Below, piece after piece: positions 21,341 to 62,815 of a stretch of 64,000 nucleotides of DNA. The stretch is from Paenirhodobacter populi (GTDB lineage: Bacteria; Pseudomonadota; Alphaproteobacteria; Rhodobacterales; Rhodobacteraceae). Below the pieces are notes generated by a model. It was not told the origin of the DNA and searched no databases. It saw nothing but the letters and a program-made list of their open reading frames with translations. The stretch lies in assembly GCF_004022215.1 (NCBI RefSeq), contig NZ_SAUZ01000001.1, positions 248,001 to 312,000 on the forward strand. The letters run 5' to 3'. The position numbers and the translations under genes were made by a program. Each line of letters opens with the position of its first letter. The first letter of the stretch is position 1.

Positions 21341-21395
21341 TCTTTCCATAAATATCCCGGGGGTGAGCGCGGAACGCGCGAGGGGGCTGGCCCCC
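21341..21395 (+). repeat. Interspersed repeat copy 1 (head first on + strand)
   Basis: The head CCATAAATATCCCGGGGG (from 21346) is preceded by TCATCTTT. The variable hairpin is GCGCG-GAA-CGCGC (21367-21379). The constant hairpin is GGGGGCTGGCCCCC (21382-21395). It forms an inverted pair with copy 2; in this pair the constant hairpins face each other. Confidence 0.9.
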
Positions 21396-21481
21396 TTCTT
21401 CGCTCACGACCTGTGGGACGCAGGGTTTGACGCGCGGTTCCTGAAATACTCGACCGACAGCATCGGCGGGAGGCGTGGAAA

Positions 21482-21540
21482 GGGGGCCAGCCCCCTCGCG
21501 CGTTCCGCGCTCACCCCCGGGATATTTAAGGAAAAACGAC
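21482..21540 (-). repeat. Interspersed repeat copy 2 (inverted)
   Basis: The constant hairpin GGGGGC-CA-GCCCCC is at 21482-21495, the variable stem GCGCG-TTC-CGCGC at 21499-21511, then CCCCCGGGATATTTAAGG and an AAAAACGAC tail. The variable stem is the same as in copy 1, so the pair could also fold as one long cruciform with about 86 bases between the arms. The DNA between and around the two copies (21297-21667) holds no recognisable gene. Confidence 0.9.
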
Positions 21541-21667
21541 GGGCAACAGACTGTCGAGTGGGATTCGGAGGCCCTTCGGGCAGGGGCGTGGGAATTCCGG
21601 TGTCGCGCCCCCTGTAAATCCACCTCTCCGCGCCCTATCCTTCTGAAAAGACGCGAAGGGGCAGAAC

Positions 21668-23071
21668 TTGGGACTTTCCGACATCGCCGGCGGGATTGGC
21701 CGCAGGATCGAAAATCTCGGCGCCTCGGTGACGGGGGTGTTTTCTGAGCCGGTGATCCGGCTGGGCGTGACCGGGCTGTCGCGGGCGGGCAAGACGGTGT
21801 TCATCACCTCGCTCGTCGCGAACCTGCTCGACCGGGGGCGGATGCCGGCGCTGACGGGGGCGGCGAATATCCGTGCCGCGTTTCTGCAGCCGCAGCCCGA
21901 CGATACCGTGCCGCGCTTCGATTACGAACATTACCTGTCCGCCATGACCGGACCGCAACCGCATTGGCCCGAGGGCACGCGGGCGGTTTCCGAACTGCGG
22001 CTGAGCTTTCGCGTCGCGCCGACGGGGTTGCTGGGGGGCGTGCGCGGGCTGCGGACCGTGCATCTGGATATCGTCGATTATCCCGGCGAATGGCTGCTGG
22101 ATCTGGGCCTGATCGACAGGAGCTTCGCGCAATGGGCCGAGGGGGTGCTGGCACGGCTGCCCCTGCGTCCGGGCGCCGGGGAATATCTGGCGGCGCTGGC
22201 GGCGGCGGATCTGTCCGCGCCGTTCAGCGAGCCTGCGGCGAAAGTGCTGGCCACGGCCTTCACCCGTCATCTGCGGCTTGCGCGCGAAGCGGGCTGGTCG
22301 GATTGTTCGCCGGGGCGGTTCCTGCTGCCGGGGGAAAAAGAGGGCTCGCCCGTCCTGACCTTCGCCCCGATCCCGGCGGGGGAATATCCGCGCGGCTCGC
22401 TCGGGCGTGAGATGGCGCGGCGCTACGATGCCTATAAATCGCAGATCGTGAAGCCCTTCTTCCGCGACCATTTCGCCCGGATCGACCGGCAGGTGGTGCT
22501 GGCCGATGTTCTGGGCGCGATCCATGCGGGGCCGGCGGCGCTCGAGGACCTGCGCCAGTCGATGGCGGCGATCCTGATGGCGTTCCGGCCGGGAAGTTCG
22601 GGGTTCCTGACCTCGCTGCTTGGCGGCAGGCGGGTGGAGCGCATCCTCTTCGCCGCGACCAAGGCCGACCATCTGCATCACAGCCAGCACGCCCGGCTGA
22701 CCGCGATCACCGCCGCCCTGCTGCGCGAGGCGAAGGATCGCGCCGATTTCGCCGGGGCGCGCACGGCGGCGATGTCGATCGCGGCGCTGCGCACCACGAC
22801 CGAGGACATGATCGCGCAGGGCGATGACATGCTGCCCGCCGTGCGCGGGCGGCTGGCCGACGGGCGCTCGGTCGCGCTCTATCCGGGCGAATTGCCCGCC
22901 GATCCGATGCAGCTTCTGGCGCCGGCGCGGGATGGGGCACAGCGCTGGCTCGAAGGCGATTACGCCATCATGGATTTCGCCCCCGCGCCCGTGACCCTGC
23001 GCCCGGGCGAGGGACCGCCGCATATCCGGCTCGACCGGGCCGCCGAATTCCTGATCGGGGACAGATTATGA
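21668..23071 (+). CDS. YcjX-like GTPase-type protein (DUF463)
   Basis: 467 residues. The P-loop GLSRAGKT (36-43) follows a short N-terminal helix; VDYPGEWLLDLGLI serves as the switch/Walker B-like region and ATKADHLHHSQH as a G4-like (TKAD) motif. This matches the YcjX/DUF463 family of stress-linked predicted GTPases. The start is TTG 21668; no ATG or GTG gives a plausible N-terminus. The stop overlaps the start of the next gene by four bases, and the pair corresponds to ycjX-ycjF of enterobacteria. Confidence 0.88.
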   Translation: MGLSDIAGGIGRRIENLGASVTGVFSEPVIRLGVTGLSRAGKTVFITSLVANLLDRGRMPALTGAANIRAAFLQPQPDDTVPRFDYEHYLSAMTGPQPHWPEGTRAVSELRLSFRVAPTGLLGGVRGLRTVHLDIVDYPGEWLLDLGLIDRSFAQWAEGVLARLPLRPGAGEYLAALAAADLSAPFSEPAAKVLATAFTRHLRLAREAGWSDCSPGRFLLPGEKEGSPVLTFAPIPAGEYPRGSLGREMARRYDAYKSQIVKPFFRDHFARIDRQVVLADVLGAIHAGPAALEDLRQSMAAILMAFRPGSSGFLTSLLGGRRVERILFAATKADHLHHSQHARLTAITAALLREAKDRADFAGARTAAMSIAALRTTTEDMIAQGDDMLPAVRGRLADGRSVALYPGELPADPMQLLAPARDGAQRWLEGDYAIMDFAPAPVTLRPGEGPPHIRLDRAAEFLIGDRL

Positions 23072-24099
23072 AAAAGCCGCTGATCGTCGAGTTCGAAGAC
23101 GCGCCCGCCTCGCCGGCCGAGGCGCCGCCCGTCATCGACATTCCCGATCCCGCCACCGCGACCGCCGAGCAGTTGCAGGGCCGCGCGATGCAGATCGCCG
23201 CGCGGCTGGCGGCGCGGCCGGGGTCGAAGATCGGGCGCTTCTTCTGGTGGGCGGCGGGAACCTTGGTGGGGTTTCTGGTCTCGGTCGCCGCATGGCGCTT
23301 CGTCGAGGGGCTGATGGTCGCGAATCCGGTGCTGGGCTGGGTGGCGACGGTGCTGTTCGGGCTGTTCATCCTTGCGGCCCTGCTGCTGGCGGGGCGGGAG
23401 GTATCGGCCTTCGCGCGGCTCGCAAAGCTCGACCATGTGCATCGCGCGGTGAACGAGGCGATCGAGGCCGACGACCTGAACCGCGCGCGCAAGGTGGCGG
23501 ATCAGGTGGCCGGGCTTTACGCGACGCGCCCCGAGATGGCCTGGGTGCGCGACCGGCTGAAGGAACGCGCGCCCGAGCAGCTTGATACGCAGACGCTGCT
23601 GGTGCTGGCGGAGAGCGAGCTGATGACGCCGCTTGATGCCGCCGCGCGGCTGGAGATCGAGGCCGCGGTGCGCACCGTCGCCACCGTCACCGCGCTGGTG
23701 CCGTTGGCGCTGGCCGATGTCTTCGCCGCGCTGACGGCGAACCTGCGGATGATCCGCCGGGTGGCCGAGATCTACGGTGGCCGGGCCGGGACGCTTGGCT
23801 CGATCCGGCTGGCGCGGGTGGTGATGACGCATCTTGTGGCCACCGGCGCCGTCGCGGCTGGGGACGACCTGATCGAGACGGTGACGGGCGGGCATCTGTT
23901 CGCCAAGCTCTCGCGCCGTTTCGGCGAAGGCGTGGTGAACGGGGCGCTGACCGCGCGGGTCGGCGTCGCGGCGATGGAGGTCTGCCGCCCGATGCCGTTC
24001 CGCGTCCTGCCGAAGCCGCGGGTGACGAACCTGACCGGCCGGGCGCTGGCCGGCGTATTCAGCCGCGCCAAGGCCCCGGACCCCGACGAGGCGCGCTAG
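23068..24099 (+). CDS. YcjF-like inner membrane protein (DUF697)
   Basis: 343 residues. An acidic, proline-rich N-terminus (1-60) is followed by two transmembrane helices (about 64-85 and 93-116). The cytosolic C-terminal part contains the DUF697 region (ALVPLALADVFAALTANLRM, about 210-235, and a Gly/Leu-rich end). The function is unknown. Genetic coupling with the upstream predicted GTPase (ATGA overlap) is the usual arrangement and suggests a shared membrane-associated complex. Confidence 0.85.
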   Translation: MKKPLIVEFEDAPASPAEAPPVIDIPDPATATAEQLQGRAMQIAARLAARPGSKIGRFFWWAAGTLVGFLVSVAAWRFVEGLMVANPVLGWVATVLFGLFILAALLLAGREVSAFARLAKLDHVHRAVNEAIEADDLNRARKVADQVAGLYATRPEMAWVRDRLKERAPEQLDTQTLLVLAESELMTPLDAAARLEIEAAVRTVATVTALVPLALADVFAALTANLRMIRRVAEIYGGRAGTLGSIRLARVVMTHLVATGAVAAGDDLIETVTGGHLFAKLSRRFGEGVVNGALTARVGVAAMEVCRPMPFRVLPKPRVTNLTGRALAGVFSRAKAPDPDEAR

Positions 24100-24130
24100 A
24101 ACATCTCGCCCCGGACGCGCCTTTCCCTTC

Positions 24131-24228
24131 TTCCCTAAATATCCCGGGGAATGAGGCGGATCAGGCAGCCTTCCGGTGGAAGGATGCCCCGCCGAATGCG
24201 CAGGACGCGCGCGAGGGGGCTGGCCCCT
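24131..24228 (+). repeat. Interspersed repeat copy 3 with extra hairpin module
   Basis: The head TTCCCTAAATATCCCGGGGA (24131-24150) is followed by a long hairpin module with GGCGG/CCGCC outer pairs, GGCA/TGCC inner pairs and a CCTTCC-GGT-GGAAGG tip (24155-24194). The constant hairpin GGGGGC-TG-GCCCC(T) follows at 24215-24228, slightly eroded. The same module occurs in copy 5 and, in tandem, next to copy 11. It lies just beyond the 3' end of the truncated hemoglobin gene. Confidence 0.85.
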
Positions 24229-24263
24229 CCTGCGCCGCTTCAGGTTCGGAACGCCGACCCGAC

Positions 24264-24674
24264 CTAGCGCAGCTTCGGCACGGCTCCCGGCGTCGCGCCG
24301 ATATCGGCGACGCCCTGCCGCAGCCCCATGCCGATGCGATGCGCCAGAGCCGACCAGGCGGCGGCCTGTCCGGGCGGCAGCGTTTCGCGCAGGGTTTCGT
24401 CGAAAGTGCCAAGCCAATCCGGGAAGTGATCCGGCCGCACGTCGCCGGCGCGGCGGTGCGCCATCATTGGCGATCCGTCGAAGCCCGGGCTGAACAGGAT
24501 CGCGCCTTTCCAGAAACGGGCGATCTTCGCCTCATGCGCGGGCCAGTCCTGCACATGGCGGGCGAAGACCGGGCCGAGCACGGGATGCGCGCGCACCTTC
24601 GCGTAGAAGCGGGCGACGACGCGGTCGATCTCGTCCTCGGTGATCTCGAAACGGGGCGGGGGCGGGGTGCTCAT
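24264..24674 (-). CDS. Truncated hemoglobin, group III-like
   Basis: A 136-residue heme protein. The B-helix Phe23-Tyr24 pair (VVARFYAKVRAHPVLGPVF) and the F-helix region PMMAHRRAGDVRPDHFPDWL, with His73 as the likely proximal heme ligand, match group III truncated hemoglobins. These bind oxygen or nitric oxide; physiological roles are mostly unproven. The frame is open upstream into ruvB, but ATG 24674 gives the family N-terminus. The gene is co-directional with ruvB and 49 bases downstream of its stop. Confidence 0.88.
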   Translation of the reverse strand: MSTPPPPRFEITEDEIDRVVARFYAKVRAHPVLGPVFARHVQDWPAHEAKIARFWKGAILFSPGFDGSPMMAHRRAGDVRPDHFPDWLGTFDETLRETLPPGQAAAWSALAHRIGMGLRQGVADIGATPGAVPKLR

Positions 24675-24723
24675 GGCCGAGAGATAGGCGCGCGCGGGCA
24701 GGTGGGCAAGTCGCCTGGGCAAG

Positions 24724-25752
24724 TCATTCGTCGAAAAGACCACCTTGGACGGGCGGGCGCGGGGCCTCCAGCCCCAGATGCCGCCAGGCACGCTGGCCCA
24801 GCATCCGCCCGCGCGGGGTGCGCTGGATCAGGCCCTGTTGCAGCAGATAGGGCTCGATCACCTCCTCGATCGCGTCGCGGGCCTCGGACAGCGCGGCCGA
24901 CAGGGTTTCGACGCCGACCGGACCGCCGCCGTAATGTTCGGCGATCAGTTGCATGTAGCGCCGGTCCGCACCGTCGAGGCCGAGGTGGTCGACGCCAAGC
25001 CGGGTCAGCGCCCGGTCGGCGATGGCGCGGGTCAGGCGGCCGTTGCCCTCGACCAGCGCGAAATCGACGACGCGGCGCAGCAGCCGCCCGGCGATGCGTG
25101 GGGTGCCGCGGGCGCGTTTGGCGATTTCGCGCGTGCCGTCCGGGTCCGAGGGAATGCCTAGCAGGCGCGAGCCGCGGGTGACGATCAGGTCGAGTTCATC
25201 CTCGGTGTAGAATTGCAGGCGGGTCGGGATGCCGAAACGGTCGCGCAGCGGCGTCGTCAGCAGGCCGAGCCGGGTCGTGGCGCCGACGAGGGTGAAGGGC
25301 TGCAGCTCGATCCGCACGGTGCGGGCGGCGGGACCTTCGCCGATGACAAGGTCCAGCTCGAAATCCTCCATCGCGGGGTAGAGCACCTCTTCCACCGCCG
25401 GGTTGAGGCGGTGGATTTCGTCGATGAAGAGCACGTCGCGGGTTTCGAGATTCGTCAGGATCGCGGCAAGATCACCGGCCTTTGCCAGAACCGGGCCGGA
25501 GGTCATCTTGAAATTCACCCCAAGCTCACGCGCCATGATCTGCGCGAGGGTGGTTTTCCCAAGCCCGGGCGGGCCGAAAAACAGTGTGTGATCCATGGCT
25601 TGACCGCGCATCTTCGCGCTTTCGATGAAGACGCGGAGATTGGCGCGCGCCTCGGCTTGCCCGACGAATTCCTCAAGCGTCTGCGGCCGGAGCGCGCGGT
25701 CGGCGTCTTCGGGCAGACGGTCGGGGCGAAGGGTCGGATCGGGTTCGGTCAT
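24724..25752 (-). CDS. ruvB: Holliday junction branch migration DNA helicase RuvB
   Basis: 342 residues, an AAA+ hexameric motor. Walker A is GPPGLGKTT, Walker B is LFIDEIHRL, sensor 1 is [18 protein letters not shown], and the C-terminal winged helix is present ([19 protein letters not shown]). With RuvA it drives branch migration of Holliday junctions. It is separated from ruvA by 98 bases holding repeat copy 4, whereas ruvC and ruvA overlap. Confidence 0.97.
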
Positions 25753-25786
25753 GGCCTAATGTCGCGCCTGCTGCGGGCGGGGGCAA

Positions 25787-25846
25787 GGGGGCGCTGCCCC
25801 CGTCGTCCTGCGGACGACTCCCCCGGGATATTTATGGAAAGATGAA
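25787..25846 (-). repeat. Interspersed repeat copy 4 (inverted)
   Basis: Constant hairpin GGGGGC-GCT-GCCCCC (25787-25801); variable stem GTCGTCC-TGC-GGACGAC (25802-25818), a perfect 7-bp stem unlike other copies; then CCCCCGGGATATTTATGG and an AAAGATGAA tail ending at 25846. It sits between ruvA and ruvB, inside what would otherwise be one operon. Confidence 0.9.
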
Positions 25847-25850
25847 TGGA

Positions 25851-26507
25851 TCAATCCTTCGGCGCGAGGAGGCGGAGCGCCGTGCGGATGAGTTTGGCGG
25901 TGTCGGTGGCCTCGGGGTTCGCGCCGGCCTCGGCGATGGCGGAGGCGGCCTCGGAGGGGGCATAGCCGAGGTTGGTGAGGGCGCTGAGCGCCTCGGCGGT
26001 GAAATTGGCTTTGGGCGGCGCGGGGGGACGTTGCGTCTTCGGGGCCTCGATCACCTCATCCGCCGGGGCGGCGTCGACGGTAAGCGCCCCGCCGAGCGCC
26101 ATGATGGTCGGTGCCTTGTCCTTCAGCTCCATCACCACGCGCTGCGCGAGTTTCGGCCCGACGCCGGGGGCGGAGCGGATCGCGTTCCAGTCGCCGAGCG
26201 CGATGGCGCGGCCGACGCCCTCGGCCCCGAGGGTGCCCAGAATGGCGAGCGAGGCCTTGGCCCCGATCCCCTGCACCGAGGTCAGCAGCCGGTGCCATTC
26301 CTTTTCCAGAAGCGTCGGGAAGCCGAAGAGCTGGAGCAGATCCTCGCGCACCAGAAGATCGGTGTAGAGGGCGCAGGCCTCGCCCACCCGTGGCAGGCTT
26401 TGCGCGGTGCGGGGGGAGACATGGACGATATAGCCCACGCCGCGCACGTCGATCAGCACATGATCCATGGCGCGGTGGATGATGGTGCCGGCGATCCGTC
26501 CGATCAT
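25851..26507 (-). CDS. ruvA: Holliday junction branch migration protein RuvA
   Basis: 218 residues. The N-terminal OB fold is [30 protein letters not shown]. The helix-hairpin-helix motifs include [17 protein letters not shown] and [18 protein letters not shown]. The flexible C-terminal domain that contacts RuvB is about 155-218. The frame is open far upstream but that part is antisense-like and overlaps ruvC; ATG 26507 overlaps the ruvC stop by four bases. Confidence 0.97.
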
Positions 26508-27055
26508 GGCGCGGTCCTTTTGATCCGGGCCTGTCCGGCGGTGATTTCCAGCGTATGGCGGCCGAGGATCGCGCCCTGCGTGCGGCGCACCGCCTGCATG
26601 TGGAAGGCATGGCAGATGGCGATCGCCAGCGCGTCGGCGGCGTCGGGGCCCTCGAACGTGACGCCCGGAAGCTGGTGCCGCACCATGTGCTGGACCTGCA
26701 CCTTGTCGGCATGGCCGACGCCGACCACCGCCTTCTTGATCGCGTTCGGGGCGTATTCGCCGACGGCGAGCCCGGCCTGCGCCGGCACCAGCAGCGCGAT
26801 GCCGCGCGCCTGGCCGAGCTTCAGCGTCGCCACGGCGTCCTTGTTGACGAAGGTCTGTTCGACGGCTGCGGCCTCGGGCGCGTAGCGGGCGATCACCTCG
26901 GTCAGGCCGGTGTGCAGGGTGACGAGGCGCAGCGACAGATCCTCGCCGGCGGAATGGATGATTCCATTGGCGACGTGGCGCAGGCGGGAGCCCTCTGCCT
27001 CGATCACCCCCCAGCCGAGGTTTCTCAACCCCGGGTCGATCCCGATCACGCGCAT
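26504..27055 (-). CDS. ruvC: Crossover junction endodeoxyribonuclease RuvC
   Basis: A 183-residue Holliday junction resolvase. The RNase H-like catalytic residues are visible: Asp7 in [16 protein letters not shown], the Glu in [12 protein letters not shown], and the Asp pair in [17 protein letters not shown]. First gene of ruvC-ruvA-(repeat)-ruvB; its promoter should lie in 27056-27401. Confidence 0.97.
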
Positions 27056-27401
27056 CCTGCTCGCCCTTCATGTGGCATTTTGTCGGTGGTTAGCACGAAA
27101 AGGGAACATCGCAAACAGGAAAGCGGACGGACGGGCTGGGGAGGTCCGGCGAAAGCGCGGAAAACCATAAGGAATGACGGGCCGTTGCGGGGCGTTTCAG
27201 GCAAAATGCCGGATGCGCCGCACATTCCGCCCGATTGCGTCAAAAGGATGAAAAAACACCGTTTTTGCCATGCGATTCTTGCATGACGGGACTGTCGCGG
27301 CAGTCGTTGTTTTCGCAAACCGCCTAATCTATGTGCGTCTACGAAGACAGGATGACCCCTGCATCAGCACAAATAGAACGCAAGAATAAAGGAACTCTCC
27401 C
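27056..27401. other. Divergent regulatory gap between ruvC and the DUF1127 gene
   Basis: 346 bases without a supportable gene. They are more AT-rich than the surroundings. A small perfect dyad AAAAAC-ACC-GTTTTT lies at 27252-27266. Promoters of ruvC (-) and the DUF1127 gene (+) must lie here; I could not single out convincing -35/-10 pairs by eye. Confidence 0.5.
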
Positions 27402-27590
27402 ATGGCACTTCTCGACACCTCCCGCTCGGCCGCCCATTCGTCCTTCTCGGGCATCTTCGCGCGCGTCCTCGACGCAATCTCGGCGTGGAACGATCTGCGC
27501 ACCACCCGCAACGCGCTGGCGAAGCTCAGCGATCGCGAACTGGCCGACATCGGCCTGTCGCGCTACGAAGCGGAAAACATCGGCCGCTGA
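27402..27590 (+). CDS. DUF1127 small Arg-rich protein
   Basis: 62 residues. The C-terminal half (WNDLRTTRNALAKLSDRELADIGLSR, about 31-56) is the DUF1127 motif. Members are small basic proteins; in several alphaproteobacteria they are stress-induced, and some have been linked to RNA turnover and phosphate or C1 metabolism. It stands alone with its own intergenic region and is closed by a strong terminator 29 bases downstream. The ATG is preceded by a weak purine-rich site. Confidence 0.85.
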   Translation: MALLDTSRSAAHSSFSGIFARVLDAISAWNDLRTTRNALAKLSDRELADIGLSRYEAENIGR

Positions 27591-27618
27591 ACCGGCCGCC
27601 GTAAGGCAATCCCTGAAA

Positions 27619-27650
27619 GGCCGCGCCGGCAGAAGCCGCGCGGCCTTTTT
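27619..27650 (+). terminator. Rho-independent terminator after the DUF1127 gene
   Basis: The stem GGCCGCGC (27619-27626) pairs with GCGCGGCC (27638-27645) and is followed by TTTTT (27646-27650). This is one of the few classical U-tract terminators in the window. It lies between convergent genes and could also limit antisense transcription into prmA. Confidence 0.85.
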
Positions 27651-27654
27651 CATG

Positions 27655-28632: not shown

Positions 28633-28638
28633 GGCGGA

Positions 28639-30998: not shown

Positions 30999-31869
<871 letters not shown>

Positions 31870-37062: not shown

Positions 37063-37160
37063 GGGGGCCAGCCCCCTCGTGCGTTCCGCATTCGGCGGGG
37101 CATCCTTCCACTGGAAGGCTGCCTGATCCGCCTCATCCCGGGATATTTATGGAAACACGA
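37063..37160 (-). repeat. Interspersed repeat copy 5 with extra hairpin module (inverted)
   Basis: The constant hairpin is at 37063-37076. The short stem TGCG-TTC-CGCA (37079-37089) is followed by the long module with its CCTTCC-ACT-GGAAGG tip and flanking GGCGG/CCGCC arms (37092-37135), then the CCCGGGATATTTATGG head with an AAACACGAA tail. The module is inserted between the head and the short variable stem. Confidence 0.88.
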
Positions 37161-37181
37161 AGGGAGAAGAGGTGGCCGGTC

Positions 37182-41603: not shown

Positions 41604-41848
41604 CACACATCGCCAGAGTACCTCCGGCACCTTGCGGAACGGCTATCGCTCCTGTGGGGCCTGATTTCAAAACCCGGGCCGAGGCGGTGTGGACACTCGC
41701 CTTCATGACATTGAAATAAATTCCCTCGCGAAGTCAGCCCGCAGGCCATCGACGCGCGTCGATATGGACATGGGATCCGCTGTGGAGAATCGCATTCTCT
41801 GCCGTGTCGCCAGAACCGGGTTTCGACACAGCCTCGGCCCGTTGCCTT

Positions 41849-41905
41849 TCATCTTTCCGAAAATATCCCGGGGGTGAGGCGCTTGCGCCGAGGGGGCTGG
41901 CCCCC
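41849..41905 (+). repeat. Interspersed repeat copy 6
   Basis: The head TTTCCGAAAATATCCCGGGG (A for T in the usual CCATAAA), with TTTCATC before it. The variable stem is GGCGC-TT-GCGCC (41878-41889). The constant hairpin is GGGGGCTGGCCCCC (41892-41905). Read from the minus-strand gene ending at 41945, the constant hairpin comes first, 39 bases after the stop. Confidence 0.9.
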
Positions 41906-43864: not shown

Positions 43865-43927
43865 GGGGGCGCCGCCCCCTCTGCCCGTGCCGGGCATTCA
43901 CCCCCGGGATATTTGTGGAAAGATGAT
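43865..43927 (-). repeat. Interspersed repeat copy 7 (inverted)
   Basis: Constant hairpin GGGGGC-GCC-GCCCCC (43865-43879); variable stem TGCCCG-TGC-CGGGCA (43882-43896); then CCCCCGGGATATTTGTGG with AAAGATGA tail. It pairs with copy 8 in tail-to-tail orientation across about 50 bases. Confidence 0.9.
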
Positions 43928-43978
43928 TGGAAACAGGCCATCACCCTTGCCGGGCCGGATCGGAAGAAATGCTGGCCT

Positions 43979-44035
43979 TCATTCTTCCATAAATATCCCG
44001 GGGGAGTCTCTGAAAGAGACGGGGGCAGCGCCCCC
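43979..44035 (+). repeat. Interspersed repeat copy 8
   Basis: TTCATTCTTCCATAAATATC begins the head, variable stem GTCTC-TGAAA-GAGAC (44006-44020), constant hairpin GGGGGC-AGC-GCCCCC (44021-44035). The constant hairpin ends 8 bases from the stop of the minus-strand peptidase gene. Confidence 0.9.
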
Positions 44036-48513: not shown

Positions 48514-48616
48514 ACCGGCCTCCCTCCGGGCGCTACGTCCACGGAACATGGCATTCCCACGCCGGTGCCGCTGACCGTTGCACATCACGGAAACCACCCG
48601 GCGCGATCTGCTGCTT

Positions 48617-48674
48617 TCGTGTTTCCATAAATATCCCGGGGGTGAGGCGCTTGCGCCGAGGGGGCAGCGCCCCC
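48617..48674 (+). repeat. Interspersed repeat copy 9
   Basis: TCGTGTTTCCATAAATATCC begins the head; variable stem GGCGC-TT-GCGCC (48646-48657), the same as copy 6; constant hairpin GGGGGC-AGC-GCCCCC (48660-48674), so copies 6 and 9 share one hairpin but differ in the other. It lies between convergent genes. Confidence 0.9.
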
Positions 48675-51297: not shown

Positions 51298-51359
51298 GGG
51301 GGCCAGCCCCCTCTTGGCCTTCGGCCAATTCACCCCCGGGATATTTATGGAAAAACGAC
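51298..51359 (-). repeat. Interspersed repeat copy 10 (inverted)
   Basis: Constant hairpin GGGGGC-CA-GCCCCC (51298-51311), variable stem TTGGCC-TTC-GGCCAA (51314-51328), CCCCCGGGATATTTATGG with an AAAAACGAC tail. It begins 14 bases behind the stop of the DUF808 gene, so it is read as hairpin, hairpin, head. Confidence 0.9.
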
Positions 51360-51460
51360 GGGCAAGGGACTGGTAAGGAAGCACGGCGCCCGGACTATTC
51401 GATACCCCGGATCAGATGGCTGTCCGGTAGCCGGAGTTTCGGGTCGCGCCCCTCCGCTAT

Positions 51461-51640
51461 CGTCTTCCATGAATATCCCCGGATGAGGCGGATCAGGCGG
51501 CCTTCCAGTGGAAGGATGCCCCGCCGAATGCGGATCAGGTGGCCTTCCAGTGGAAGGACGCCCCGTCGAATGCGGATCAGGCGGCCTGCAGGCCAAAGGC
51601 CGCTTCGTCGATAAGGTGGCCTTTCATGGAAGAAGGCCGC
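51461..51640 (+). repeat. Repeat copy 11 head followed by a 42-bp tandem array
   Basis: A diverged head (CGTCTTCCATGAATATCCCC, 51461-51480) leads into a tandem array of the long hairpin module. Unit 1 is 51488-51529 and unit 2 is 51530-51571; both begin GCGGATCAGG and carry CCTTCC-AGT-GGAAGG. A partial third unit starts at 51572, and a degenerate fourth at about 51611-51645. No constant GGGGGC hairpin closes this copy. Units 1 and 2 differ at about four positions. No gene lies in the 404-base gap 51284-51687. Confidence 0.85.
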
Positions 51641-51687
51641 GCCGAATGCCGGAACGGACGGGGACGGCGCCCCCGGCTATCGCGCAG

Positions 51688-54517: not shown

Positions 54518-54607
54518 GGTCCGCATCCGTTTCAGGTCCTTCCGCCTTCTAGGACAGCACGGCGACCGGGGCAAGTTCCGAGGCGTCATCCCCGCGGAGA
54601 GCGCGCA

Positions 54608-54664
54608 GGGGGCGCTGCCCCCTCGGCCTTCGGCCTCACCCCCGGGATATTTATGGAAACACGA
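54608..54664 (-). repeat. Interspersed repeat copy 12 (inverted)
   Basis: Constant hairpin GGGGGC-GCT-GCCCCC (54608-54622); variable stem GGCC-TTC-GGCC (54625-54635); CCCCCGGGATATTTATGG with AAACACGAA tail. Tail-to-tail pair with copy 13, about 16 bases apart. Confidence 0.9.
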
Positions 54665-54680
54665 AAGCCATGCGCTTCTG

Positions 54681-54738
54681 CCGTCGTTTTTCCAAAAATA
54701 TCCCGGGGGAGCCCGGAACGGGCGGGGGCAGCGCCCCC
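54681..54738 (+). repeat. Interspersed repeat copy 13
   Basis: CGTCGTTTTTCCAAAAATAT begins the head; variable stem GCCCG-GAA-CGGGC (54711-54723); constant hairpin GGGGGC-AGC-GCCCCC (54724-54738). It ends 9 bases from the pepN stop, so on the pepN transcript the constant hairpin comes first. Confidence 0.9.
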
Positions 54739-54747
54739 TGCGACGGT

Positions 54748-57294
54748 TCAGCCCAGAAGCCGTGCGGTCATCTCGCCCAGATCGCGGCTGAGGCTCGGCT
54801 GCGCGGCGATGCGCGCAAGCTCCGCCCGCATCTTCTCCTGCCGGGCTTTGTCGTAGCGCGCCCATGTCTCGAAGGCCGTGGACATCCGCGCCGCGGTCTG
54901 CGGGTTCAGCGGGTCGAGCCGGATCAGCCAGTCGGCATAGAAACGGTAGCCCGCGCCGTCCTTGCGGTGGAAGCCCGCGTGGTTCGCCGACAGCCCGCCG
55001 AGGACCGAGCGGAAGCGGTTCGGGTTGCGCCAGTCGAACAGCGGATCCGAGGCGAGCCGGGCGGCGAGGTCCGGGGCCTCGTCCGGTGGGCAGAGCGAAA
55101 GCTGCGTGACGAACCATTTGTCCATCACCAGCGGGTTCCCCTGCCACCGCTTGCGGAAGGCGGCGAGTTCGGTTTCGGCCTTGCCCGCGGTCACCAGAAT
55201 GCCGAGCGCGCCGAGGCTTTCGGTCATGTTGCCGGCCGAGGCATAGAGCGCGCGCGCCCGCGCCGCGTCGTCGCGCAGCGACAGCAGCGACAGGCAGGCG
55301 AGCCGCAGCGACCGCAATCCGGCCGAGGCCGCATCGGGCTTGTAGGGGCCGGGGACGGCGCTGGCATCAAAGAGATGCGCGAGCGCGGTTTCATGCCGTT
55401 CGGCCAGCGCCGCCATCAGCGCGCGGCGGGCGCGGTGGATCGCATCCGGATCGACGGTCTGGCCCGCGGTGAACAGGCTCTGGGCGATCTCATCCTCGCC
55501 GGGCAGGCGCAGGATCAGCGCGCGGAAGGCGGGCGACAGGCTTTCGTCGCCGATCAGCGCGCCGAGCGCCTCGACATAGGCGGGATCGGGTTCCGCGCCG
55601 ACGGTCATCGCCGTCAGCGTCGCGCGGGCGAGGTTGCGCCCGGCTTCCCAGCGGTTGAACGGATCGGTGTCGTTCGCCAGCAGGAAGGCCTGTTCCTCGG
55701 CCGAGGTCTGGCGCTCCAGCACCACGGGCGCGGAAAAGCCCCGCAGGATCGACGGCACCGGCTTCGCGCCAAGCCCGGTGAAGGTGAAGCTCTGCCGGTC
55801 GCCGGTCATTTCCAGAACGGTCGTGGGCACCACCTCGTCACCGTTCGGCGACAGAAGCCCGACGGCGATCGGGATATGCCGCGCGGGTTTTTCCGGCTGG
55901 CCGGGCGTGGGCCGGGTTTCCTGCGTGAATTCCAGTGTATAGGTGCCGTCCTTGAAGTCATCCGTGACTTTCAGGCGCGGGGTTCCGGCATCGGTATACC
56001 AGTGCTTGAACTGGCTCAGGTCGCGGCCCGAGCTGTCCTCGAACACCTTGATCCAGTCCTCGATCGTGCAGGCCTGCCCGTCGTGGCGCTCGAAATAGAG
56101 ATCGAGCGCCTTGCGATAGCCTTCCGGCCCGACAAGGGTTTTCAGCATCCCCACCACCTCGGCGCCCTTTTCGTAGACGGTGGCGGTGTAGAAGTTGTTG
56201 ATCTCGCGGTAATGGTCGGGGCGCGGCGGATGGGAAAGCGGGCCTGCATCCTCGCGGAACTGCCGCCCACGAAGCGTGATCACATCCTCGATCCGCTTGA
56301 CCGGGCCGAGCCGCATGTCCGAGGTGAAGCTCTGGTCGCGGAAGACGGTCAGCCCCTCTTTCAGGCAGAGCTGGAACCAGTCGCGGCAGGTGATCCGGTC
56401 GCCGGTCCAGTTGTGGAAGTACTCGTGGCCGATCACCCCCTCGATCCGCTCGTAATCCAGATCGGTGGCGGTTTCCGGCGAGGCGAGGACGAGCTTGGAG
56501 TTGAAGATGTTCAGCCCCTTGTTCTCCATCGCGCCCATGTTGAAATCATCGACCGCGACGAGGTTGAAGAGGCTCAGGTCGTATTCCCGGCCATAGGCTT
56601 CCTCGTCCCATTTCATCGCGCGGGCGAGCGCGCCGAGCGCGAAGGCGGTGCGGTCCTCGTCGCCCGGGCGCACCCAGATGTTCAGATCGACGGTCTTGCC
56701 CGACATCGTGGTGAAGGTGCCATGCGTCGCGACCAGCTCTCCGGCGACGAGCGCAAAGAGATAGGCGGGCTTCGGCCAGGGATCGTCCCATTCGGCCCAG
56801 CCGGGGCCATGGCCCACGGGATTGCCGTTCGACAGGAGCACGGGCTGATCCCCCTCGATCCGCACGTGGAAGCGCGCCATCACATCGGGGCGGTCGGGAT
56901 AAAAGGTAATCTTGCGAAAGCCTTCCGCCTCGCATTGCGTGCAATACATGCCTTTCGACATGTAGAGCCCCTCAAGGGCGGTGTTGTCCTCGGGCGCGAT
57001 CTCGACCTCGGTTTCGAGGGTGAAGGCGCCTTCGGGCAGCGCGGCGGGATGGATCGTCAGCCCGGCCTCGGTCAGCAGGTAGTCGGCGGGTTTCAGCGCC
57101 TGCCCGTCGATGGCCAGCGAGATCAGTTTCAGCTCCTCGCCGTCCAGATGCAGGGGGGCGCCTTCCTCGCGCGGGGCGAGCGACAACGCAGCCTTCACCC
57201 GCGTCGCCTTGGGCGCAAGGCGGAAGGTCAGCGAGACGTGATCGAGCGTGAAGGGATAGGGGCGATAGTCGGAAAGATACGTGGTGCCGTCCAT
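54748..57294 (-). CDS. pepN: Aminopeptidase N
   Basis: 848 residues of the M1 family. The exopeptidase motif [11 protein letters not shown] and the zinc site [11 protein letters not shown] plus the downstream Glu in [11 protein letters not shown] are intact; four domains of the usual proteobacterial PepN layout fit the length. It is cytosolic, with broad specificity. The longer frame to 57444 would overlap glcB; ATG 57294 ([15 protein letters not shown]) gives the family start. Divergent from glcB across 140 bases. Confidence 0.95.
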
Positions 57295-57434
57295 GAAAAC
57301 CTGCCTTTCGGTTGCGCTCAAGCTAGGCATCTGTCCGGGCGGGGGCAAGGTGATGTGAGGGAACGCAGCGGGATTTCGGCTGGACAGCCGCGCGCTTCGT
57401 GCCGAAACTCCCCCAAACGGAAAAGGAGGGTCCG

Positions 57435-59591
57435 ATGACCGCACGGGTGGAACGCGAAGGGTTGCAGGTGGCGGCGGAGCTTGCCGACTTCATCGAGGCG
57501 CAGGCGCTGCCCGGGACGGGCGTCGATCCGGCGGCCTTCTGGGCGGGGTTTTCGACGCTCCTGCATGATCTTGGCCCGAAGAACCGCGATTTTCTGGCGC
57601 GGCGCGAGGCGATACAGGCGCGGATCGACGCCTGGCATCTGGAACACCGGGGCGAGGGGCATGACGCCACCGCCTACCGCGCCTTTCTGGAAGAGATCGG
57701 CTATATCGTCCCCGAAGGCCCCGATTTCACCATCGAGACGCCGCGCACCGACCCGGAATTCGCCACCGTCTGCGGGCCGCAGCTTGTGGTGCCGATCATG
57801 AACGCGCGCTATGCGCTGAATGCCGCCAATGCGCGGTGGGGCAGCCTTTACGATGCGCTTTACGGCACGGATGCGCTTGGCGATCTGCCGCAGGGCAAGG
57901 GCTACGATCCGGCGCGCGGGGCGCGGGTGATCGCCTGGGCGAAGGAGTTCCTTGACGGCGCGGCGCCCTTGGTCGCCGGATCGTGGAAGGATGTCACGCG
58001 GCTCTGGGTGCAGGACGGCGGATTGTTCGCCGAGACCTCGGAGGAAACCGGGCTGATGGACCCGGCGGCGTTCGTGGGCTATGCCGGCCCGGCGGATGCG
58101 CCGACGGAAATCGTTTTGAAACACAATGACCTGCATGTCATTGTCGAGGTGAATCCTGAACATCCGATCGGCCGCGACGATCCCGCCCATATCGCCGATA
58201 TGCGGCTGGAATCGGCGATTTCCTCGATCATGGACTGCGAGGATTCCGTCGCCGCCGTCGATGCGCCCGACAAGGTCCTGGCCTATGAAAACTGGCTCGG
58301 CCTGATGAAGGGCGATCTGGTCGAGGAGGTCGCCAAGAACGGCAGGACCTTCACCCGCAGCCTCGCCCCGGACCTGACCTTCACCGCGCCTGAAGGCGGC
58401 GAGGTCACGCTCAAGGGCCGGGCGCTGATGCTGGTGCGCAATGTCGGCCATCTGATGACCAATCCCGCCATCCTGACCCGCGACGGGGAAGAGGTCTACG
58501 AGGGCCTGATGGATGCGATGGTCACCACGCTCTGCGCGATTCACGATCTGCAGAAAACCGAAGGGCCGCGCAATTCGGTCACCGGCTCGGTCTATGTGGT
58601 GAAGCCCAAGATGCACGGGCCGCAGGAAGTCGCCTTCGCCGACGAGATCTTTGGCCGGGTGGAGGATGTGCTGGGCCTTCCGCGCTATACCGTCAAGCTT
58701 GGCATCATGGACGAGGAACGCCGCACCTCGGTCAATCTGAAGGAATGTATCCGCGCGGCGAAGCACCGGGTGGCGTTCATCAACACCGGCTTCCTCGACC
58801 GGACGGGGGACGAGATCCACACCTCGATGGAGGCCGGGCCGATGCTGCGCAAGGGCGAGATGAAATCGCAGCCCTGGATTCAGGCCTATGAGGATCGCAA
58901 CGTCGATATCGGGCTTGCCTGCGGGCTGGCGGGCAAGGCGCAGATCGGCAAGGGAATGTGGGCGATGCCCGACCGCATGGCCGACATGCTGGCGCAGAAG
59001 GTCGGCCATCCGCTGGCCGGGGCGAATTGCGCCTGGGTGCCCAGCCCCACCGCCGCGACGCTGCATGCGACGCATTACCATCAGGTCGACGTCAAGGCCC
59101 GCCAGCAGGAGATCGCCACCCGGCACCGTCCGGCGCGGCTCGACGATCTGCTGACCATCCCGCTGGCCTCGGGGCGCAACTATGCCGACGCCGACATCAC
59201 CGCCGAGATCGAGAACAACGCGCAGGGCATCCTTGGCTATGTCGTCCGCTGGGTCGATCAGGGCGTCGGCTGTTCCAAGGTGCCCGATATCCACGATGTC
59301 GCGCTGATGGAGGATCGCGCCACCTGCCGGATTTCCAGTCAGGCGCTGGCGAACTGGCTGCATCACGGCGTGGTCAGCGAGGGGCGGGTGATGGAGGCCC
59401 TGCGCAAGATGGCCGCCGTCGTCGACCGGCAGAACGCGGGCGATCCCGCCTATCACCCGATGGCGCCGGATTTCGAGGGGCTGGCCTTTCAGGCGGCCTG
59501 CGACCTCGTGTTCCTCGGCCGGGTGCAGCCCTCGGGCTATACCGAACCCGTGCTCCATGCCCGCCGCCAGCAGGTGAAGGCGCAGGCGTGA
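57435..59591 (+). CDS. glcB: Malate synthase G
   Basis: A 718-residue G-type malate synthase condensing glyoxylate and acetyl-CoA. [40 protein letters not shown] and the [20 protein letters not shown] region are family hallmarks; the long single chain distinguishes it from the short A type. AAAAGGAGGGTCCG before ATG 57435 is a strong ribosome site. Isocitrate lyase is not in the window. A strong hairpin follows the stop. Confidence 0.96.
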
Positions 59592-59604
59592 ACGCATCCG
59601 CAAG

Positions 59605-59629
59605 GGGCGGCGGATCCCCGCCGCCGCCC
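59605..59629 (+). terminator. Hairpin terminator of glcB
   Basis: GGGCGGCGG (59605-59613) pairs with CCGCCGCCC (59621-59629) (or GGCGGCGG with CCGCCGCC shifted by three), followed by GTATTTT. It lies 13 bases after the glcB stop. Confidence 0.75.
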
Positions 59630-59633
59630 GTAT

Positions 59634-59651
59634 TTTCGGCATATGCCGAAA
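59634..59651. promoter_or_regulatory. Perfect 18-bp palindrome, candidate operator
   Basis: TTTCGGCATATGCCGAAA is a perfect inverted repeat without spacer. It lies 77 bases ahead of the glutamine amidotransferase gene and just after the glcB terminator. The size and symmetry fit a dimeric regulator site. As RNA it could also add to glcB termination. No regulator for it is identified. Confidence 0.5.
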
Positions 59652-59727
59652 TGCACAGCCTTTGCGCTTTCGCTGGCCTTTTCCTCGCCGCTTTCGCCGA
59701 TTAGGTTGGCGGCGAAAGGACGGCATC

Positions 59728-60501
59728 ATGGCAAGACCTGTTATCGGTATCATCGGCAATCGCGGGCTGATCAACAACCGCTATCCCGTGCATGAAGGCG
59801 GGCAGATGAATTCCTGCGCGGTCGCGCATGTGGCGGATTGCATTCCGATGCTGATCCCCGCCGATCCGGATTACATGTCCATCGGCGAATTGCTGGATGT
59901 CTGCGACGGCTTCCTGCTGACCGGCGGGCGGCCGAACGTCCATCCATCGGAATATGGCGAGGAAGAAAGCCCCATCTACGGCACCTTTGACCGGGCGCGG
60001 GATGCGATCACCCTTCCGCTGGTGCGCGCCTGCGTGGAACGCGGGCAGCCTTTCTTGGGCATCTGCCGCGGCTTTCAGGAGGTGAACGTGGCGATGGGCG
60101 GCTCGCTCCACCCCGAGATCCGCGAGCTGCCGGGCCGGATGAACCACCGGATGCCGCCCGACGGCACGATGGAAGAGGTCTTTGCCCTGCGCCACAAGGT
60201 GACCCTGACGCCGGGCGGGCAGTTCGCGCGGCTGTTCGGCGCCGACGAGGTGATGACCAACACCCTGCACGGGCAGGGGATTCACCGGCCGGGCGCGCGC
60301 GTCGTCATCGAGGGCACCGCCCCCGACGGCACGCCCGAGGCGATCTATGTGAAGGACGCGCCGGGCTTCACCATGGCCGTGCAATGGCACCCGGAATGGA
60401 ATGCCGATTCGGACCCCGTATCCCGCCCGTTGTTCACCGCGTTCGGCGATGCGGCGCGGGCCTGGGTCGCGCGCAAATGCCCCTCGGCCCGCGTCGCCTG
60501 A
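59728..60501 (+). CDS. Gamma-glutamyl-gamma-aminobutyrate hydrolase-like amidotransferase
   Basis: A 257-residue class I glutamine amidotransferase-like hydrolase (C26 peptidase family). The nucleophile is Cys113 in FLGICRGFQEVNVAMGG; His and Glu follow in AVQWHPEWNADSDP. Best match is PuuD-like enzymes that hydrolyse gamma-Glu-GABA in putrescine breakdown; no other puu genes are near, so the substrate is uncertain. ATG 59728 was chosen (MARPVIGIIGNRG), with GAAAGGACGG upstream. Confidence 0.88.
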   Translation: MARPVIGIIGNRGLINNRYPVHEGGQMNSCAVAHVADCIPMLIPADPDYMSIGELLDVCDGFLLTGGRPNVHPSEYGEEESPIYGTFDRARDAITLPLVRACVERGQPFLGICRGFQEVNVAMGGSLHPEIRELPGRMNHRMPPDGTMEEVFALRHKVTLTPGGQFARLFGADEVMTNTLHGQGIHRPGARVVIEGTAPDGTPEAIYVKDAPGFTMAVQWHPEWNADSDPVSRPLFTAFGDAARAWVARKCPSARVA

Positions 60502-61287
60502 TCAAAGCTTGCGGGTCACGTCCTTGCGCGCGAAGGATTTGAGGTCTTCGCCATATTCCACAAGCCAGCGGCGCACGCTTTCCGGGTCGCGCTTCGCCAG
60601 TGCCGACAGCCAGTCGGCGATGGCCTTCTGGATGAACCAGTTGCGGTCCGGGGCCAGCGTCGCGCACCAGTCCAGAATGCGGTCGCGCGCGGCGCTTTCC
60701 TGCGCGTCGGGATGACGGGCGCGGGTCAGGGGCAGGGTGGCCGTCAGCGTCGTCCGCCGGGTCCAGAGGTTGTCGGACGCCAGCCAGCCCGCGATCCCGT
60801 CCAGCCGCGCCAGATCCGCCGTCACCCGCCGCGCCGCCGCGGCCGAGACCGCATCGGCGATCGCCCATGTGTCCAGATCGCCGACCCAGCCGCGGATCAG
60901 ATCCCAGGCCGCATCGTCGGGCCGTATCCGCGCCTGCGTCATCAGCTTCGCCGCCGCGATCTTCGCCTCATGGATGTCGCTGTCCCAGAGCCCGCGTGCC
61001 AGCGCGAGCCGTTCCTCCGCCGTGGCCTGCGCCCGCCAGAGCCGCACCTGATCCTCGATCAGCGGCGCCGCGACGCCCAGATAGCGCCGCGCGGTCTTGT
61101 GATACTCCGCCGCCTGCGTCGCCCGTTCCGCATCGCCCGAGGCTTCGAGCAACGCGATCGCCTCACCCACCGTCGGCGCGGGGCCGAGGTCTTCGGTCTC
61201 CGCCGTTTCCTCATATTGTTGGTAATCCGCGTCCGAGGCGGCATAGGCGCGCGCCTCTTCGGCAAGGCGGGCCTCTTCCTCGGTCAT
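60502..61287 (-). CDS. DNA alkylation repair-like (AlkD-type HEAT) protein
   Basis: 261 residues from ATG 61287. The helical repeat body matches the AlkD family: EYHKTARRYLGVAAPLIEDQ, ARGLWDSDIHEAKIAAAKLM, VGDLDTWAIADAVSA and WFIQKAIADWLSALAKRDPESV. Characterised members excise 3-methyladenine and 7-methylguanine. The N-terminal 50 residues (acidic, EEEARLAEEARAYAASDADY) are not part of the usual fold, so the start may be further downstream; upstream in-frame codons to 61446 are also open. Its stop abuts the convergent gene's stop at 60501. Confidence 0.8.
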   Translation of the reverse strand: MTEEEARLAEEARAYAASDADYQQYEETAETEDLGPAPTVGEAIALLEASGDAERATQAAEYHKTARRYLGVAAPLIEDQVRLWRAQATAEERLALARGLWDSDIHEAKIAAAKLMTQARIRPDDAAWDLIRGWVGDLDTWAIADAVSAAAARRVTADLARLDGIAGWLASDNLWTRRTTLTATLPLTRARHPDAQESAARDRILDWCATLAPDRNWFIQKAIADWLSALAKRDPESVRRWLVEYGEDLKSFARKDVTRKL

Positions 61288-61460
61288 CGGGCGGTTGTCC
61301 GCATCGGCGCGGATCACTTTGCTGTTGCGGGCCAAATCTGCATCCCTCGCTGTTCCCCCGACAGATAGCCGCCGAAGGCCCCGCTTGCCAGCGGTCATTC
61401 CGCTTGCGCCCGGCGGCGGAACCGGATAGCCCGCCACCCCCGGCACAGGAGGATCCCCGC

Positions 61461-62690
61461 ATGACAGCCCAGACCCTTGCGATCGACTTCGGCACCTCGA
61501 ACAGCGCGGCTGCCGTGCTCGAGAACGGGCGGGTCCGCCGGCTGCAACTGGCGCCGGGGTCGGATACCGTGCCCACCGCCGTCTTCTTCCCGGCCGACCG
61601 CGGCCCGATGCTGATCGGCGCCGATGCGGTCGCTGCGCTGATCGGGGGGGAGGAGGGGCGCTTCATGCGCGCATTGAAAAGCATCCTCGGCACTTCGCTG
61701 TTCCACGAAAGCCGGCTGATCGGCGGCAAGCGGCGGACATTGGCGGAGGTCGTCACCGCCTTCCTCGTGACCCTGCGCGAACGCGCGGGGGCGCAGGCGG
61801 GCGCCGTGTTCCGCCATGCGCTGTCGGGCCGCCCGGTGCATTTCCATTCCGCCGATCCGGAGCGCGACGCGAAGGCCGAGGCGGACCTGCGCGCCTGCTA
61901 CCTTGCCGCCGGGTTCGAGACGGTCGATTTCCTGTTCGAGCCCGAAGCGGCGGCGCTGGCCGCGCAGGCCCCGGCGAAGCTGGGGCTGATCGTGGATATC
62001 GGCGGCGGCACCTCGGACTTCTCGGTGTTCCGGGTGGAGAATGGCAAGGTCCGCATTCTGGCAAGCCACGGGCTGCGGCTTGGCGGCACGGATTTCGACC
62101 AGTCGGTGTCGATGGATCATGCGATGCCGCTTTTGGGCTATGGCGGGTCGCTGCGCCGCACTTTTGGCAACGGGCTGCTGCCGGTGCCGAATGCGATCTA
62201 TCTGGAGCTTGCGACATGGGCGAAGATCCCCTTCGTCTACACGCCGGAATCGCGCCGTCTGGTGGCCGACATGCAAAAGCACGCGGTGGAGCCGGGCAAG
62301 ATCGCCCGCCTTGCCACGGTGATCGAGGAGGAACTGGGCCACAGCCTCGCCTTCGCGGTCGAGAAGGGCAAGATCGCGGCCAATTCGGGCGATTACGGCG
62401 CGCGGATCGAGATGGGCTTCATCGAGCGCGGTCTGGCCGCGCCGGTGTCGCCCGCCTCGCTGGATGCCTCGCTCGCCGGGTTCCGCGCGCGGCTGGAAGA
62501 GGCGATGGTGGAAACGCTGCGCCTTGCCGGCACCGGCGCAGGGGAGATCGGATCGGTCGTGCTGGTCGGCGGGTCGAGCCTGATGTCCATGGTGGGCGCC
62601 GCGGCGGCGGTGGTCTGCCCGCAGGCGGAGCAGAGCCGCGCCGAGGCCTTCACCGCCGTGGTCGACGGGCTCGCCCTCGCCACCGCCTGA
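61461..62690 (+). CDS. Hsp70-like (YegD-type) chaperone-like protein
   Basis: 409 residues, only the actin-like ATPase domain. The phosphate-1 loop is AIDFGTSNSAAAVLENG (8-24), the phosphate-2 loop GLIVDIGGGTSDFSVFRV, and the adenosine motif VVLVGGSSLMSMV. The substrate-binding domain of DnaK is absent, as in YegD/DnaK-like orphans. Role unknown. AGGAGGA precedes ATG 61461; upstream codons overlap the AlkD promoter region. Confidence 0.88.
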   Translation: MTAQTLAIDFGTSNSAAAVLENGRVRRLQLAPGSDTVPTAVFFPADRGPMLIGADAVAALIGGEEGRFMRALKSILGTSLFHESRLIGGKRRTLAEVVTAFLVTLRERAGAQAGAVFRHALSGRPVHFHSADPERDAKAEADLRACYLAAGFETVDFLFEPEAAALAAQAPAKLGLIVDIGGGTSDFSVFRVENGKVRILASHGLRLGGTDFDQSVSMDHAMPLLGYGGSLRRTFGNGLLPVPNAIYLELATWAKIPFVYTPESRRLVADMQKHAVEPGKIARLATVIEEELGHSLAFAVEKGKIAANSGDYGARIEMGFIERGLAAPVSPASLDASLAGFRARLEEAMVETLRLAGTGAGEIGSVVLVGGSSLMSMVGAAAAVVCPQAEQSRAEAFTAVVDGLALATA

Positions 62691-62756
62691 GGGCTTTCCA
62701 CGATACGGGAAAGTTCGCGTCAGGCGGGCGTTGGGACTGCGGAAAACGGGGCAGAA

Positions 62757-62815
62757 GGGGGCCAGCCCCCTCGCCCGTTCCGGGCTCACCCCCGGGATAT
62801 TTATGGAAGAATGAA
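62757..62815 (-). repeat. Interspersed repeat copy 14 (inverted)
   Basis: Constant hairpin GGGGGC-CA-GCCCCC (62757-62770), variable stem GCCCG-TTC-CGGGC (62773-62785), CCCCCGGGATATTTATGG with AAGAATGAA tail. It is the first structured element behind the Hsp70-like gene (66 bases from its stop). Confidence 0.9.

Follow-up and report, generated by a model that had tools for sequence, protein, structure and literature searches.

The 64,000-nt window analyzed here (C1:248001-312000 of the 4.78-Mb Paenirhodobacter populi genome, labeled G000) contains 14 copies of an intergenic repeat element built from a conserved head and hairpins. A first-pass annotation had counted 14 copies, all intergenic and none in the first 21 kb, and our scans agreed on all three points: the head CCATAAATATCCCGGGGG matched 13 of the named copies with at most three mismatches (shuffles predict 0.02), a looser core recovered all 14, including a degenerate copy at 51470, and none fell within a gene called by a simple purpose-written gene caller. 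The genes called from 62 to 21296 are all on the + strand, which suggests that the first 21 kb are copy-free because they offer no convergent space.

We drew the anatomy of the unit from the window and 60 stretches of the same genome. In order, it comprises a head of approximately TTCATTCTTCCATAAATATCCCGGGGG, a variable hairpin, and a GGGGGC/GCCCCC hairpin. The left end takes five main forms (ATTCTT in 37, GTGTTT in 32, GTTTTT in 24, ATCTTT in 23, GGCTTT in 4, and others in 3 of 123 own copies) and is followed by an invariant AAATATCCCGGG that includes a G-run, by TGA or A(G), and by the variable hairpin, while the constant hairpin reads GGGGGC-(TG, AGC or GGC)-GCCCCC and ends in T. The head is nearly invariant over ~12–18 bp, beyond any structural need, and conservation fades over ~25 nt leftward and ~12 nt rightward with no sharp edge. 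The constant hairpin was parsed in 248 copies from this genome and its relatives (three own loci are grouped with the relatives, and a few repeats are included), 26 further core matches being left out because they had no recognizable constant hairpin. A variable hairpin of at least 4 bp was present in 200 of the 248 copies (102 distinct hairpins) and absent from 48; its stem measures 4–11 bp, 4 being the search minimum, and its head-strand loop is mostly GNA (at least 46 of the 102 distinct hairpins, among the 30 commonest loop classes).

Within the window, copies 1 (21335..21395, + strand; left end, head, GCGCG-GAA-CGCGC hairpin, and constant hairpin) and 2 (21482..21541, − strand; identical stem) stand tail-to-tail. 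Copy 4 (25787..25847, −; GTCGTCC-GCA-GGACGAC) occupies the ruvA-ruvB spacer in sense orientation. Convergent spaces hold copy 6 (41846..41905, +), between guaB on the + strand and a − strand gene, copy 9 (48614..48674, +), both with GGCGC-TT-GCGCC, and copy 10 (51298..51360, −; TTGGCC-GAA-GGCCAA). Two head-to-head pairs are formed by copies 7 (43865..43928, −; TGCCCG-GCA-CGGGCA) and 8 (43976..44035, +; GTCTCT-GAA-AGAGAC, AG type) and by copies 12 (54608..54666, −) and 13 (54681..54738, +; GCCCG-GAA-CGGGC, AG type), and copy 14 (62757..62816, −) again carries GCCCG-GAA-CGGGC. The stems listed in the first-pass annotation are present, but in the copies at 24136, 37149, and 51470 a long inserted hairpin unit replaces the simple variable hairpin. 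In copies 3 (24122..24227, +; ATGAGGCGGATCAGGC..CCTTCC/GGAAGG..) and 5 (37063..37162, −) this unit lies between the head and the constant hairpin; in copy 11 (51456..51675, ends approximate, +) a degenerate head (TGAATATCCCCGG) precedes tandem 42-bp hairpin units, two of them clear and one degenerate, and a constant hairpin that is degenerate as well.

The element keeps strongly to convergent and 3′ positions, and at the convergent ends of this genome canonical terminators and the element alternate. A genome-wide search allowing at most two mismatches found 362 heads (175 + 187), and the reversed-pattern control found none. Across 958,779 bp of chromosome-like stretches, counting spaces of at least 60 bp, the element occupies 61 of 83 spaces between convergent genes, as against 43 of 238 between codirectional and 6 of 130 between divergent genes. 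A first count of 134 core matches gave 70 convergent, 54 codirectional, 5 divergent, 3 at an edge, and 2 inside called genes; the two in genes matched the core alone, each with one mismatch, and lacked the remainder of the element, so that the equal occurrence inside coding sequence that the first-pass annotation had named as evidence against its reading was not observed. Copies in codirectional spaces showed no strand preference (24 same strand, 30 opposite), which fits hairpins active on either strand, and none of 36 divergent spaces in the relatives G150 and G151 held an element. With the element masked, canonical hairpin-T-run terminators were found at 10 of 122 convergent ends with the element versus 15 of 44 without it (Fisher p = 1.2e-4), and a looser, unmasked finder gave 24 of 119 versus 16 of 35.

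Compared by eye, the 3′ ends of guaB across the genus (L189-L205) differ: some carry a canonical terminator, some the element, some both, and some neither in clear form. In G158 and G162 a pair of copies lies within ~10 nt of the stop codon with no intervening hairpin-T-run, and in G149, G155, and G163 there is a canonical terminator with no element within 360 nt. This set is suited to testing whether terminator and element replace each other.

The variable hairpin covaries, keeping its pairing while its sequence changes, as the first-pass annotation had claimed from the window; shuffle tests restricted to distinct sequences or inserts support that claim. Of 39 TGA..GA inserts of this genome, 20 had the four outer pairs complete (2000 shuffles gave a mean of 1.9 and a maximum of 6–7), as did 9 of 9 AG-type inserts (mean 3.1, maximum 8). 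In relatives, a set that excludes own-genome loci and identical contexts, the corresponding numbers were 7 of 25 (mean 0.6, maximum 4) and 10 of 17 (mean 3.2, maximum 9). Many TGA..GA inserts start and end with A, and this first A-A ‘pair’ was scored as a failure. Thirteen distinct units share an insert length of 18 nt (12 belong to this genome, one to a congener); in them, 98.5% of cells were paired versus 65.2% in shuffles, with 15 to 39% in slid alignments, and the covariation score was 0.718 versus 0.153, a value that none of 500 shuffles reached. Two of the five measures applied to these units were not above shuffles, namely pairs changed on both sides (reached by 102 of 500) and further pair types (34 of 500).

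All 19 neighbors less than 400 bp apart in this genome are inverted (13 head-to-head, 6 tail-to-tail), and 96 of its 134 core matches are single copies. Of the 18 genus genomes, 17 contain head-to-head pairs (321 forward matches). Such pairs form a palindrome of ~25 positions, and in three relatives (G150-G152) its two arms covary. In the 75 pairs listed for these relatives, positions 5, 7, 16, 21, and 23 were complementary more often than in any of 2000 within-genome shuffles; at position 16, for instance, 70 of 75 were complementary (shuffle mean 42.2, maximum 54). Positions 1–4, 6, and 8–12 were fixed by the search pattern and are uninformative on covariation. Positions 13–15, which resemble an internal loop, gave a weak signal (47, 25, and 42 complementary versus shuffle means of 39.8, 21.0, and 36.7, reached by 33, 351, and 159 of 2000 shuffles). 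Because the arm subfamilies CCAAGGTG and GCAAGAT supply much of the signal, the 75 pairs do not represent 75 independent events. Paired copies fold strongly as RNA (z −8.5 for the pair at L075 and z −9.3 for copies 12 and 13, window 54600-54740). Loci L072 (G150) and L080 (G151) are colinear, with two long blocks 92–93% identical, and four sites, three with a pair and one with a variant single copy, were compared at matching places; at two of these orthologous sites, A and C, differences in one arm are compensated in the other, and the center stays recognizable. In the G150 and G151 stretches, all nine convergent spaces with a pair have the element no more than 31 nt from either called stop codon; the median distance from pair to stop codon is 6–8 nt on each side (4 and 5 spaces, respectively), which leaves scarcely any room for another signal.

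The modules of the unit form a mosaic. Left end and stem class, ~20 nt apart, were unlinked (1394 of 2000 shuffles reached the observed value; n = 60, seven commonest stems), as were left end and tail (622 of 2000; n = 123), and stem class and tail were weakly linked (50 of 2000). Since left end and stem assort freely, copies must have swapped pieces rather than spread as intact units, and we rejected spread of intact copies from a single master; near-free assortment across ~20 nt further requires very short exchange tracts.

The 42-bp hairpin unit (center CTTCC(A/G)G(T/C)GGAAG) is found inside some copies, at window positions 24151-24200, 37087-37136, and 51483-51616 and at L013, L016, L017, L023, L059, L064, and L188; in 14 of 17 cases it has CCCGG no more than 45 nt upstream, i.e., it lies behind a head. 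It has a covarying hairpin of its own (CAGCCTTCC/GGAAGGATG, ACATTCTTCC/GGAAGAATGT, CGATCTTCC/GGAAGATCG) and is sometimes in tandem. Its period is a multiple of three, and by eye one frame resembles a repeated peptide; the unit might derive from a captured gene end or be a second mobile hairpin.

The core AAATATCCCGGGG is present in all 18 genus genomes, in 19 to 341 exact copies of TCC-core heads, with fewer than 100 in several congeners. Variant cores (AAATACYYCGGGG) dominate G046 and G156 (106 and 94, versus 26 and 30) and are nearly absent from G000 and G153 (1 and 0), counts that point to species-specific head ‘dialects’ in the genus. The full architecture was matched in 102 of 149 sampled family genomes and in 6 of 385 genomes of a class sample, comprising two of its five family members and 4 of 380 genomes outside the family (1–4 matches each). 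The pattern misses a common 14-nt tail (GGGGGCTGGCCCCC), and these figures are therefore undercounts.

In a comparison of the ruvA-ruvB spacer in 45 of 80 named loci (R. capsulatus was left out because of a contig end), the spacer held the element in Rhodobacter viridis, Sinirhodobacter ferrireducens, S. hankyongi, Sinirhodobacter WL0062, Paenirhodobacter enshiensis, Thioclava sediminum, T. atlantica, and a Pararhodobacter, and degenerate remnants at best in R. aestuarii and Thioclava SK-1. By eye, ruvA and ruvB nearly abut in the roseobacter loci, and the Paracoccus loci seemingly have a different upstream gene. A pattern scan found the architecture somewhere in 15 of the 80 loci. In several genera the spacer holds a simpler form, a head and one GC hairpin, so that the site and the head are old and the stem is not.

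We propose that the repeat is a structured, orientation-independent transcript 3′-end element of Rhodobacteraceae, similar to repetitive extragenic palindromes (REPs) and bacterial interspersed mosaic elements (BIMEs), that replaces intrinsic terminators at convergent genes, and we assign this reading a probability of roughly 0.55. Location and stem covariation are established by the data; a role in termination and processing, and a capacity to spread, we infer. RNA polymerase arriving from either side would transcribe GC-rich hairpins, which can form in both orientations, so that one insertion might serve both genes. The hairpins would define the mRNA 3′ end and shield it against 3′-5′ exonucleases, with termination probably aided by Rho or by pausing. 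Downstream of the tail hairpin, the consensus in 122 copies is T at +1 (0.91), then G (0.47), C (0.61), and C (0.48), and no U-tract was found in these copies. For this reason we favor Rho, pausing, or processing over intrinsic termination, reject a canonical intrinsic terminator, and do not retain the first-pass suggestion of a Rho-independent-like signal in its strict sense. Where copies are paired, RNase III may cleave the long hairpin as well. Stem sequence presumably changes freely because the stem serves structure only, and the long near-invariant head (AAATAYYYCGGGG plus a species-specific left arm) may be the sequence through which copies are copied or homogenized.

The copying or homogenizing agent is probably something other than a Y1 transposase of the REP-associated tyrosine transposase (RAYT) type. 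A search for PF01797 (Y1_Tnp, RAYT) found no match in the 18 genus genomes, with 5 of 14 control genomes positive, and we rejected a RAYT-moved REP on this evidence. An element-borne mobilizing gene was also rejected: just one of 1144 called genes had a core match within 220 bp on both sides, and by eye it looks like a GntR-type regulator. The REP/BIME-like description in the first-pass annotation is supported insofar as the repeat is extragenic, has a covarying hairpin, and lies at 3′ ends; the suggested REP-associated transposase elsewhere in the genome is not supported. As a wider hypothesis, which we hold to be less likely than not, much of the Rhodobacteraceae may entrust convergent gene ends to a replicating, concertedly evolving, bidirectional palindromic element with species head dialects, spread and homogenized piecewise by a non-RAYT agent that reads the head and leaves the stems free in sequence.

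Several observations weigh against the proposed 3′-end function. Most stretches in the position survey were picked for holding copies, so that 61 of 83 is a biased proportion (six stretches were added later, five of them without an exact listed copy); genes and terminators were called with simple purpose-written scripts; and masking the element also deletes sequence in which a terminator could be found. No significant terminator contrast was seen at codirectional ends of G000 (7 of 43 versus 24 of 195) or, in small samples, in G150 (5 of 14 versus 5 of 12) and G151 (0 of 10 versus 2 of 10). Single units folded no better than shuffles (six strands from three copies, with z between −0.16 and 0.96), and the two-hairpin fold was the minimum in three of these six strands; we accordingly rejected the single unit as a free-standing strong fold. 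Moreover, 51 of the 61 element-bearing convergent spaces in G000 hold one unit, so that the long palindrome is dispensable there, and six of nine listed G046 pairs join CCTC with CTCC cores that are not fully complementary. Finally, in 300 kb of C3 and C6 the 20 convergent spaces are all free of the element and only 10 of 40 ends have a canonical terminator, from which it follows that ends lacking both signals are common.

The C3 and C6 stretches (L169-L182, L023) are a nearly copy-free ~300 kb, with a GC content of 0.61–0.66 in 14 stretches; their 300 kb contain three core matches, one of them inside a gene. C3 and C6 are perhaps a secondary replicon; repC matches were located on other contigs, C21 and C34. 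Similar DNA, over about one third of the query, was present in 12 of 72,556 plasmid records, from Paracoccus, Tritonibacter, Phaeobacter, Sulfitobacter, Antarctobacter, and Roseivivax. Given these records and the location of repC, we rejected a strict exclusion from plasmids.

The same data can be read as those of a selfish miniature mobile repeat that inserts widely but survives chiefly at 3′ ends since insertions into genes and promoters are purged, and whose hairpins serve mobilization, through folding of single-stranded DNA, instead of the host. We consider this explanation rather unlikely, though it accounts for a good deal: the strong variation of copy number among congeners, species-specific head sequences, the mosaic of left ends, stems, and tails, the sparseness of copies on C3/C6 and in plasmid records, and the frequency of GNA loops, a type that is very stable in single-stranded DNA. 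It sits less well with the lack of a Y1 transposase in 18 genomes and of any element-flanked transposase gene, and with sites common to species and genera, ends that fade without a clear boundary, and compensatory differences at orthologous sites.

We regard as improbable a DNA-level binding site between convergent genes for a nucleoid, topology, or DNA-processing protein, with the head as its sequence-specific part. Such a site would explain why the head is conserved beyond structural need and why copies show no strand bias relative to genes, and species dialects would be expected if the protein and its sites drifted together; it leaves unexplained both the maintenance of stem pairing with free sequence and the scarcity of terminators at element-bearing convergent ends. 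Very improbable is an origin of the compensatory changes without selection, by template switching or gene conversion between inverted arms that repairs hairpins at 3′ ends merely tolerant of DNA: quasi-palindrome correction predicts the perfect complementarity in G151 of positions 13–15, otherwise loose, at sites A and C, and modules do assort freely, but general correction would not leave these positions matching only weakly above chance over the 75 listed pairs, and terminator exclusion is left unexplained.

If the proposed 3′-end function is correct, the repeat is an unrecognized gene-end element for a bacterial family and an example of a repeat that replaces ordinary terminators. It would help explain 3′ untranslated regions and transcript ends in the annotation of Rhodobacter, Sinirhodobacter, Thioclava, and relatives. 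The two orthologous sites with compensatory arm differences offer a clean test case for selection versus template-directed repair, and up to hundreds of sites per genome are available for testing what the mobilizing agent is.

No description of the element was found in the literature searched, a search that left most subscription papers and preprints outside its range. An Rfam search of the window at gathering scores returned one tRNA only, and we rejected a known RNA family. The pufA-pufL intercistronic hairpin of Rhodobacter is a GC hairpin that ends or protects mRNA, and it resembles the element as a GC hairpin at mRNA ends in the same group; it was rejected as an identity because seven puf loci scanned held no core match. 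Intrinsic terminators, including bidirectional ones, likewise place a GC hairpin behind stop codons, and canonical ones are rarer at element-bearing convergent ends; unlike them, the element has a long conserved head and hundreds of near-identical copies and lacks a U-tract. The HRC-8-4 motif is also a Rhodobacterales-specific hairpin RNA but, as presented in the portion of the source considered (PMC8632094), not a dispersed repeat. In R. sphaeroides, the part of a 3′-end study considered here (PMC7866481) describes no motif upstream of 3′ ends dependent on polynucleotide phosphorylase (PNPase).

Closer parallels are found among REPs. With GTAG REPs, BIMEs, and paired REPs (REPINs) that are associated with RAYTs, the element shares paired inverted copies (19 of 19 close neighbors inverted), mosaic modules, 3′ positions, and more than 100 extragenic copies (362 heads); it differs in having no PF01797 gene in the 18 genus genomes and, by eye, no GTAG or GTGG at the hairpin foot, which reads GGGGGTGA or GGGGGAG. 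The CGTC-tagged REPs of alphaproteobacteria (Di Nocera et al. 2013, PMC3733652), in the parts of that account used here, are single hairpins whose stem measures 8–9 bp, with CGTC as the terminal tag and a tail that mostly conforms to CCA. By eye, no CGTC (or TGTC or CCTC) tag beside an 8–9 bp stem with a CCA-like tail was found at the hairpin foot of the element, which consists instead of a long unpaired head and two hairpins, the first with a free stem of 4–11 bp. As it fails in tag, stem, and RAYT features, we do not file it as a member of either the CGTC or the GTAG REPs. The main text of PMC3733652, its species figures aside, does not mention Rhodobacter, Paracoccus, Roseobacter, Silicibacter, or Rhodobacterales; it states that CGTC families are present in all alphaproteobacterial orders, and a Rhodobacterales CGTC family may therefore coexist with the element. 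In the same parts of that paper, CGTC REPs are high-copy and extragenic, predominantly form head-to-head dimers, lie between convergent or unidirectional genes near 3′ ends, and apparently have no dedicated transposase. Head-to-head dimers, convergent and unidirectional locations, and the lack of a transposase of its own were all found for the element as well, and among known systems it most resembles these CGTC-tagged REPs.

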